A DNA stretch of 35,391 nucleotides, from NCBI GenBank assembly GCA_019750475.1, contig JAIEOO010000341.1, forward strand, positions 1-35,391. The letters run 5' to 3'. The translations under genes and the position numbers were made by a program. The first letter of the stretch is position 1. Each line of letters starts with the position of its first letter. The notes below the pieces were generated by a model. That model worked only from the letters and a program-made list of their open reading frames with translations. It was not told the origin of the DNA and did no database searches. The DNA comes from Acetobacteraceae bacterium. GTDB lineage: Bacteria > Pseudomonadota > Alphaproteobacteria > Acetobacterales > Acetobacteraceae. Shown here in pieces: positions 26,828 to 29,605 of the stretch.

Positions 26828-27601
26828 TCACCCCTGCACCGAGAACCCGCCATCCACCGGGATGGCCGTGCCGGTGATGAAGCGCGCGCTGTCGCTCGCG
26901 AGGAACGCTGCGATGCCCTCGAAATCGGCGGGGTCGCCCCAGCGGCCCATCGGCGTGCGGGCGCGGACATTGGCGTCCAGTTGGGGCATGTCCGCCCGCG
27001 CCTTCCGCGTCAGCGCCGTGTCGATCCAGCCCGGCAGCACGGCGTTCACCGTGATGCCGTCCGCCGCCCAGGCGGTCGCGAGCGACTTGGTCAGCTGCAC
27101 GATCCCGCCCTTCGACGCCGCATAGGCGATATGCAGCGGCATCCCGAAGATCGAGAGCATGGAGCCGTTGTTGATCACCCGGCCCACGCCACCCGCCTTC
27201 AGATGCGGATGCGCCGCGCGGGCGCAGAGCATGGCGGAGGTGAGGTTGGTGTCGAGGACGGCGTGCCAGTTCTCGGTGGCGTAGCTTTCGGGGCGGCCGC
27301 GGATGTTGGTGCCCGCGTTGTTCACCAGGATGTCGAGGCGGCCGAGCCGCGCCACCGTCTCCGCCACGGCGTCGTTGACCGAGGCTTCGTCGGTGACGTC
27401 GCAGGTGACGGCGTCCGCGGTGGCGCCGAGCGCGCGCAGCTCCGCAACGGCTTCGGCCGATTTGGCCGCATCCCGCGCCGCGAGCATGACGGCCGCACCC
27501 GCCTTCGCCAGGCCGCGCGCGAAGCCGAGGCCGATGCCGCCATTGCCGCCGGTGACGAAGGCGACGCGGCCCCCAAGGGCAAACATCGCTTGGGCGAACA
27601 T
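26828..27601 (-). CDS. SDR family oxidoreductase
   Basis: VAFVTGGNGGIGLGFA, NNAG, YAASKGG; TGATG overlap with carA stop. Confidence 0.93.
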   Translation of the reverse strand: MFAQAMFALGGRVAFVTGGNGGIGLGFARGLAKAGAAVMLAARDAAKSAEAVAELRALGATADAVTCDVTDEASVNDAVAETVARLGRLDILVNNAGTNIRGRPESYATENWHAVLDTNLTSAMLCARAAHPHLKAGGVGRVINNGSMLSIFGMPLHIAYAASKGGIVQLTKSLATAWAADGITVNAVLPGWIDTALTRKARADMPQLDANVRARTPMGRWGDPADFEGIAAFLASDSARFITGTAIPVDGGFSVQG

Positions 27602-28977
27602 CAGCGGGCCTTTTCCATCAGCGCCGTGAAGCGGTGGAACAGATAGTGGCTGTCGGACGGGCCTGGCGAGGCCTCCGGATGGTATTGCACGGAGAAGGCC
27701 GGGCGGTCGGTTGCCGCGATGCCCTCATTGGTGCCGTCGAACAGGCTGCGATGCGTCACGCGCACGTTGCCGGGGAGCGTCTTCTCATCCACCGCGAAGC
27801 CGTGGTTCTGGGAGGTGATCTCCACCTTGCCCGTCTCCAGGTCCTGCACGGGCTGGTTCGCGCCGCGATGCCCGCGGTCGAGCTTGTAGGTCTTCGCCCC
27901 GAGCGCGAGCGCGAGGAGCTGGTGGCCGAGGCAGATGCCGAACACCGGCACCTGCTTTTCGAGAACGCCCTGGATCGCCGGCACGGCATACGCGCCGGTG
28001 GCGGCAGGGTCACCGGGGCCGTTGGAAAGAAAGACGCCGTCGGGCTGGTGGCGCAGGATGTCCTCGGCCGTCGCGGTGGCGGGCAGCACCGTCACCTCGC
28101 AGCCGGCATCGGCCAGGCAGCGCAGGATGTTGCGCTTCGCGCCGTAATCCACGGCGACGACCTTGTGCTTCTTCGCGGGGGAAGGCGCGAAGCCCTCGCC
28201 CCACTGCCACAGGCCCTCTTCCCACGTGTAGGCCTGGCGCGTCGTGACCTCCTTCGCGAGGTCCATGCCTTCGAGGCCGGGCCAGTCCCGCGCCATCTTC
28301 ACCAGGGCCGGGATGTCGAACCGGCCATCGGCGGGGAAGTGCAGCACGCCGTTGGGCGCACCGCCGTCGCGGATGCGGGCGGTCAGGGCGCGCGTGTCCA
28401 CGCCGCAGAGACCGGGCAGGTTCCAGCGCTTCAGCCATTCCTGCAGGTGCAGGGTCGCGCGGTAATTGGCCGGCTCGGTGACGTCCTGCTTGACGATCAG
28501 GCCGCGGGCGGCGGGGCTCGTCGCCTCGATGTCCTCGTTGTTGGTGCCGACATTGCCGATATGCGGGAAGGTGAAGGTGATGATTTGCCCGGCATAGGAC
28601 GGGTCGGTCAGCGTCTCCTGATAGCCGGTCATGCCGGTGTTGAAGCAGATCTCGGCCACGTTGGTGCCGTGGGCGCCGAAGCCGGCGCCCCAGAAGACGG
28701 CCCCGTCCGCGAGCACGAGGGCGGCCGTGGCGCCGGCGGGCGGGGTGTGGGCGTCGGACAAGGCGGGGGTCTCCGTGGGGACGTCGCTGTTGGTGATCTT
28801 GGCGCCGGGCATGTCCGAGAGGGAGAGGCCGGTGGCGGCGATGATGGCGGGCCAATGCTTGGCCGGGATGGCCCGGGACTGGCGCCATTTCCGGATGGCC
28901 TCGGTGCCGATCTGGCAGGCCTGTGCGGCGGCCTCGGGCCCGCCCATGAGGGCGAGGATGTCATCCACGCTGCGCAT
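27601..28977 (-). CDS. carA: Carbamoyl-phosphate synthase small subunit with N-terminal HTH-like domain
   Basis: CarA core from about residue 83 (ALVLADGAVFWGAGFGA...FGICLGHQLLALALG...PGPSDSHYLFHRF); first about 56 residues read as a Cro/YdaS-like HTH (GGPEAAAQACQIGTEAIRKWRQSRAIPAKHWPAIIAATGLSLSDM). Confidence 0.94.
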   Translation of the reverse strand: MRSVDDILALMGGPEAAAQACQIGTEAIRKWRQSRAIPAKHWPAIIAATGLSLSDMPGAKITNSDVPTETPALSDAHTPPAGATAALVLADGAVFWGAGFGAHGTNVAEICFNTGMTGYQETLTDPSYAGQIITFTFPHIGNVGTNNEDIEATSPAARGLIVKQDVTEPANYRATLHLQEWLKRWNLPGLCGVDTRALTARIRDGGAPNGVLHFPADGRFDIPALVKMARDWPGLEGMDLAKEVTTRQAYTWEEGLWQWGEGFAPSPAKKHKVVAVDYGAKRNILRCLADAGCEVTVLPATATAEDILRHQPDGVFLSNGPGDPAATGAYAVPAIQGVLEKQVPVFGICLGHQLLALALGAKTYKLDRGHRGANQPVQDLETGKVEITSQNHGFAVDEKTLPGNVRVTHRSLFDGTNEGIAATDRPAFSVQYHPEASPGPSDSHYLFHRFTALMEKAR

Positions 28978-28995
28978 CGGCTAGGATGTGGAAGA

Positions 28996-29054
28996 AATTT
29001 CCCACCCGCGCAAGCGCGATTCCCGGCAGGGGCGCTATGCGCGGGAGGGAAATT
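28996..29054. promoter_or_regulatory. Long inverted repeat (17-nt arms, 16/17 matching, plus inner AGCGC/GCGCT arms) in the carA-yqeY divergent intergenic region
   Basis: AATTTCCCACCCGCGCA (28996-29012) versus TGCGCGGGAGGGAAATT (29038-29054). Confidence 0.8.
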
Positions 29055-29093
29055 CCCAGTTCATTGCAAATACGTTTCGACAGAGAGGCCCAC

Positions 29094-29543
29094 ATGTCCC
29101 TCCGCCAGCGCTTCACCGACGAACTCAAGGCCGCCATGCTCGCCCGCGACACGGCCAGGACCGCCACGCTCCGCATGATCACCGCGAAGCTCAAGGACGT
29201 GGACATCGCCGCCCGGCCCAACCCCCCCGTCGCCGATGAGGAAATCGTCGGCATGCTGCGCGGCATGGCGAAATCCCGCCGCGAGTCCGTCGAGCTCTAC
29301 AAGCAGGGCGGCCGGCAGGACCTGGTGGACAAGGAAGAGGCCGAGATCGCCGTGATCGAGGGCTTCCTGCCGCAGCAGATGGACGAAGCGGCCATGCAGG
29401 AAGCCGTCCGGGCCGCCATCGCCGAGACGGGCGCGACCGGCATCAAGGACATGGGCAAGGTCATGGCCGCGCTGAAGGCCAGGCACGCCGCGACGCTCGA
29501 CATGGCGAAGGCCGGACCGATCGTCAGGCACGCGCTCGCGTGA
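29094..29543 (+). CDS. GatB/YqeY domain-containing protein
   Basis: MSLRQRFTDELKAAMLARDTARTATLRMITAKLKDVDIA...IEGFLPQQMDEAAMQEAVRAAI...MGKVMAALKARH. Confidence 0.93.
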   Translation: MSLRQRFTDELKAAMLARDTARTATLRMITAKLKDVDIAARPNPPVADEEIVGMLRGMAKSRRESVELYKQGGRQDLVDKEEAEIAVIEGFLPQQMDEAAMQEAVRAAIAETGATGIKDMGKVMAALKARHAATLDMAKAGPIVRHALA

Positions 29544-29544
29544 T

Positions 29545-29605
29545 CCCCGCCGAGGTTTTCCGCGCCACTTCGCTGCGCTGCGTTCTGCGGAAAACCTCGG
29601 CGGGG
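29545..29605 (+). terminator. Perfect 19-bp inverted repeat immediately downstream of yqeY-like gene
   Basis: CCCCGCCGAGGTTTTCCGC (29545-29563) and GCGGAAAACCTCGGCGGGG (29587-29605), 23-nt spacer; 1 nt after the stop codon. Confidence 0.6.

Follow-up and report, generated by a model that had tools for sequence, protein, structure and literature searches.

The interval between carA and yqeY in the window (the whole stretch of 35,391 nt analysed here) is, on the sequence comparisons described below, very probably a two-operator autoregulatory region, in which a Cro-like domain fused to CarA would repress its own gene, carA, directly. The genes and coding features concerned are as follows.

27601-28977, minus strand: carA, an HTH-CarA fusion of 458 aa (CPSase small subunit, glutamine-hydrolysing; TIGR01368, 461.6 bits; PF00988, PF00117)
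28810-28968, minus strand: carph-isopro / Cro-like HTH domain at the N-terminus of CarA (NF046037; predicted fold)
28876-28905, minus strand: putative recognition helix TEAIRKWRQS, residues 25-34 (covariation; predicted helix 3)
29094-29543, plus strand: yqeY, divergent from carA (PF09424)

A single 458-aa open reading frame thus holds both the whole enzyme (TIGR01368, PF00988, PF00117) and a DNA-binding domain (NF046037). The N-terminus scores 63.5 bits against NF046037 (carph-isopro), for which the curated cut-off is 38, making it a member, and it keeps all invariant residues of the HTH. By CarA, the nearest named relatives are Roseomonas, Rubritepida and Roseococcus, which places the window in the Acetobacteraceae. 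A PDB sequence search with the HTH gave no match. In an AlphaFold2 model of the domain (pLDDT 86.5), Q33 lies inside helix 3 (residues 25-34), and the best PDB matches found by Foldseek are Cro proteins (TM 0.63-0.70, probability 1.0, weak E values of 0.03-0.1), namely the all-helical phage proteins Xfaso 1 Cro (3bd1), N15 Cro (6on0/2hin) and P22 Cro (1rzs). A Cro-type helical fold with a recognition helix is therefore predicted for the CarA N-terminus. The NF046037 entry names a domain only, and we found neither an operator nor a function described for it in the literature searched. The carph-isopro domain also scores high at the N-terminus of non-CarA proteins of ~400-550 aa in many other alphaproteobacterial families (L081-L110); since class-wide NF046037 matches are mostly non-CarA, they are uninformative on a carA operator.

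The first-pass annotation had described a single long dyad at 28996-29054, next to the HTH-CarA gene. Its arms, AATTTCCCACCCGCGCA (28996-29012) and TGCGCGGGAGGGAAATT (29038-29054), are indeed complementary at 16 of 17 positions, the pairs AGCGC/GCGCT and CCC/GGG are present further in as claimed, and the distances given, about 20 bp from the carA start (28977) and about 40 bp from the yqeY start (29094), agree with ours. What that description had overlooked is that the outer arms belong to two copies of a shorter palindrome, with the 17-bp consensus TGGGAA-N5-TTCCCA. Each arm contains part of one copy, O1 or O2, and the arms pair with each other because two similar palindromes pair by construction. 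The elements between the two genes are listed below.

28988-29004: putative operator O1, GTGGAAGAAATTTCCCA (carA strand TGGGAAATTTCTTCCAC); 10/12 to TGGGAA-N5-TTCCCA, with family conservation
29042-29058: putative operator O2, CGGGAGGGAAATTCCCA (carA strand TGGGAATTTCCCTCCCG); 10/12, with a second copy in 96/108 family genomes
29005-29045: GC-rich inner stem between O1 and O2, overlapping the first 4 bases of O2; species-specific
29008-29013, minus strand: candidate carA -35 box TTGCGC; tentative, from the window sequence and the family promoter profile
28983-28988, minus strand: candidate carA -10 box CATCCT, weak; tentative, on the same basis

The hairpin proposed for either strand was borne out by RNA folding energies far outside those of dinucleotide shuffles: -47.2 kcal/mol on the plus strand (z -5.5) and -46.3 on the minus strand (z -5.8), with 0/200 shuffles folding equally well. 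Folding with DNA parameters gave z -6.2 for O1-O2 and, when restricted to the inner 41 nt, z -3.7. By these measures the dyad is genuine and not a product of chance. O1 and O2 are the only sites reaching 10/12 or better within the 35-kb window; among 20,000 order-1 simulated intergenic sequences, 0.6% had at least one site at 10/12 and none had two. We searched the 4.56-Mb genome for a second significant copy of the dyad and found only the self-match; hence the dyad is no dispersed repeat, and we rejected a REP/MITE-type hairpin as a candidate. No plasmid relatives of the carA-yqeY intergenic DNA were found.

We assembled 108 Acetobacteraceae genomes with the HTH-CarA fusion. A strict double-site pattern had detected only G080 among 289 class genomes (1/5 family genomes); being too strict, it was replaced by inspection of CarA upstream regions. 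With a core/symmetry score of at least 8.5, both sites were present before carA in 96 of the 108 genomes. The centre spacing of O1 and O2 in these 96 genomes was most often 39 bp (28 genomes), 38 (24) or 40 (19), followed by 37 (7), 41 (4) and a tail, such that 82 fall between 37 and 41. In 19 congeners the carA-yqeY interval lacks the long dyad and carries two copies of TGGGAA-N5-TTCCCA. Aligning this interval from relatives, as the first-pass annotation had proposed, revealed conserved half-sites, as expected of an operator, rather than a conserved long stem, as expected of an RNA. Exact palindromes were present in 41 of 60 family genomes searched and, when each was counted once by coordinates with a dispersed repeat in G085 set aside, 51 of 57 lie at carA. 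Such a near-exclusive target fits a dedicated autoregulator. The G085 repeat (TGGGAAACACCTTCCCA / TGGGAAAAACCTTCCCA, dispersed 11 times away from carA) is a repeat family that matches the operator pattern by chance.

Although yqeY adjoins carA in 94/108 family genomes, with no phage or prophage control region, O1 and O2 are kept in genomes without divergent yqeY, for instance in L060 and L062 (900 nt inspected) and beside a different divergent ORF in L221, indicating that the sites belong to carA. We also considered O2 as a yqeY promoter element, and rejected this because no -10 or -35 lies at a fixed position relative to O2 and because O1 and O2 remain where no divergent yqeY is found.

O1 and O2 sit in the promoter of HTH-CarA's own gene. 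When 94 family genomes were aligned on O1, TTG stood at -6 to -4 before O1 (T 84%, T 76%, G 80%), and directly after O1 began an A/T-rich, NATA-like -10 element (A at 77%); in relatives, the 17 bp of O1 coincide exactly with the spacer separating the -35 and -10 hexamers. In 67 of the 94 genomes the ATG comes 12-13 nt after O1, so that transcription is predicted to begin on or beside the ATG, which would agree with a leaderless mRNA. In some others the ATG is ~40-80 nt from O1 and the O1/O2 pair is still intact. Together, these positions indicate that O1 and O2 belong to the promoter and lie outside the carA mRNA. In the window itself, O1 and O2 are 54 bp apart, compared with 37-41 bp in most relatives, the candidate -35 box TTGCGC is displaced 3 bp away from O1 compared with its position in relatives, and a generic sigma-70 scan of the region before carA detected no promoter. 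Since the sites match at 10/12, the spacing is 54 bp and the -35 and -10 elements are weak and out of register, operator function is less certain in this species than in its relatives.

The paired sites depend on the HTH. The O1/O2 pair was absent from all 25 testable loci encoding an HTH-less CarA (L301-L327 minus two that were cut or misplaced), of which 24 come from other alphaproteobacterial families and one, G047, from the Acetobacteraceae; it was also absent from G420 and G511, two further Acetobacteraceae with an HTH-less CarA. Among the remaining family genomes lacking an HTH match, those that were re-searched either had an assembly devoid of CarA or, in the case of G044, a CarA truncated at a contig end. 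Three loci from small-genome family members, L327 and L352 (genus g28) and L351 (G511, genus g29), have CarA without the HTH and lack the operators; they are candidates for natural co-loss.

The residue that follows an invariant KWR in the predicted recognition helix (Q33 in the window) covaries with position 2 of the half-site. With Gln, found in most genomes, position 2 is G in 233 cases and C in 22; with Ser it is C in 62 and G in 4. Ala and His are accompanied by C (6:0 and 2:0, respectively), and Thr by a mixture (3 C, 5 G). At the genome level, C is in the majority in 2/70 genomes with Gln versus 21/24 with another residue, the latter having been deliberately enriched by a Ser-variant query. 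The exceptions are Thr variants and one Ser variant that keep half or more G, and two Gln genomes with C. Fisher's exact test gives P ~1e-15, a statistic that ignores ancestry. The best tree, built from the catalytic part alone, implies ~6 changes of the helix residue; because well-supported branches force only one, the number of independent changes is uncertain. For Cro, rules that relate the recognition helix to the operator half-site had been proposed earlier (Hall et al. 2005, as cited in PMC4997575).

Conservation, promoter position, HTH dependence and helix covariation, all computed here, strongly support the suggestion of the first-pass annotation that the region is an operator for HTH-CarA, with the amendment that the two 17-bp palindromes within the long dyad, and not the dyad as a whole, form the operator. 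We infer binding by CarA, and repression rather than activation. Dimers of the N-terminal Cro-type HTH would bind O1 and O2, and CarA, alone or within the CPSase complex, would occupy O1 and exclude RNA polymerase; as O1 fills the spacer between -35 and -10, its occupancy should block the polymerase. Binding at O2 would be cooperative, plausibly through a single multimeric CPSase complex that displays several HTH domains; occupancy of O2 may affect yqeY too. The outcome would be a negative feedback loop in which carA is repressed by the enzyme subunit that it encodes.

Dimeric HTH regulators in general recognise palindromes like these, and O1 and O2 could instead be operators of a different transcription factor, from another locus, that regulates carA (and yqeY), the CarA HTH having some other target or none. 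We consider this unlikely, because the sites track the HTH fusion, including their absence beside HTH-less CarA inside the family, because changes at base 2 of the half-site go with changes at a residue in CarA's own recognition helix, and because there are almost no other genomic targets, as expected of a dedicated autoregulator. Less probable still, and in our judgement very improbable, is that the 59-nt hairpin works at the RNA level in the carA or yqeY leader (as an attenuator, a riboswitch or a stability element), as the first-pass annotation had alternatively suggested on the basis of what is indeed a very stable fold on both strands. For carA the conserved promoter speaks against this, since its predicted start point at the ATG leaves the dyad upstream of the mRNA; moreover, of 15-16 testable pairs no more than 5-12 survive in the 19 congeners, and what is conserved is each 17-bp palindrome, not the long stem. 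A yqeY-leader RNA, conceivable for this one species, finds no comparative support. The dyad matched no Rfam family, and a scan found no terminator.

A third explanation is no rival of the operator reading and would complement it: the long dyad may be a recent mutational product of template switching between similar palindromes plus an inner GC-rich extension, possibly forming a cruciform and having no role beyond that of the operators. We regard the case for this as evenly balanced. The inner stem is absent from 19/19 congeners, there are ~16 bp extra between O1 and O2 relative to them, and the window region is the family extreme in folding energy (-45.3 kcal/mol; the family median is -21.2 and the runner-up reaches -33.8). 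The extreme fold, the extra length and the loss of pairs in congeners together indicate that the inner stem is lineage-specific, and it perhaps arose by such template switching, yet we found no intermediate or closer sister genome.

The proposed autoregulation by CarA resembles that by phage Cro in using a small dimeric HTH on palindromic operators and in the correlation between recognition helix and operator. It differs in that the CarA domain is joined to a biosynthetic enzyme with a housekeeping role, with the operator in that enzyme's promoter and no phage context. Trigger enzymes such as PutA, BirA and NadR are metabolic enzymes with an HTH that repress their own or pathway genes. HTH-CarA likewise combines an enzyme with an HTH, repression in this case being our reading of the sequence; unlike those proteins, it has no precedent in the literature searched, where we found no paper on HTH-CarA or on CarA as a DNA-binding trigger enzyme. 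Transcription of carA is tightly controlled in E. coli, partly by the enzymes PepA and PyrH acting as regulators (PMC6245113). There, separate factors (ArgR, PurR, RutR, IHF, PepA, PyrH) act over hundreds of bp, whereas Acetobacteraceae carA would rely on a pair of 17-bp sites and a domain of the enzyme itself.

If our reading is correct, a Cro-like/CarA fusion provides family-wide, one-protein feedback control of an enzyme central to the synthesis of arginine and pyrimidines. The carph-isopro domain, otherwise no more than a named model, would thereby acquire a concrete DNA target, and the natural series of helix residues and operators (Gln, Ser, Ala, Thr, His) would allow recognition rules to be tested. 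The reading itself is open to direct test in culturable members of the family. UMP favours the heterodimer and ornithine the tetramer of E. coli CPSase (PMC6245113), which makes a link between oligomer state and O1/O2 occupancy attractive by analogy. More tentatively, an effector-dependent CPSase oligomer might serve as a pathway sensor whose HTHs bridge O1 and O2, its allosteric state setting carA transcription; arginine and pyrimidine supply would then set carA transcription without another regulator throughout the Acetobacteraceae.

Directly after the yqeY stop, at 29545-29605, we observed a perfect 19-bp inverted repeat with no T-run. It is dispersed in the genome at ~25 or more places, several of them 97-100% identical over 70 nt, and is a REP/MITE-like hairpin rather than a simple terminator.
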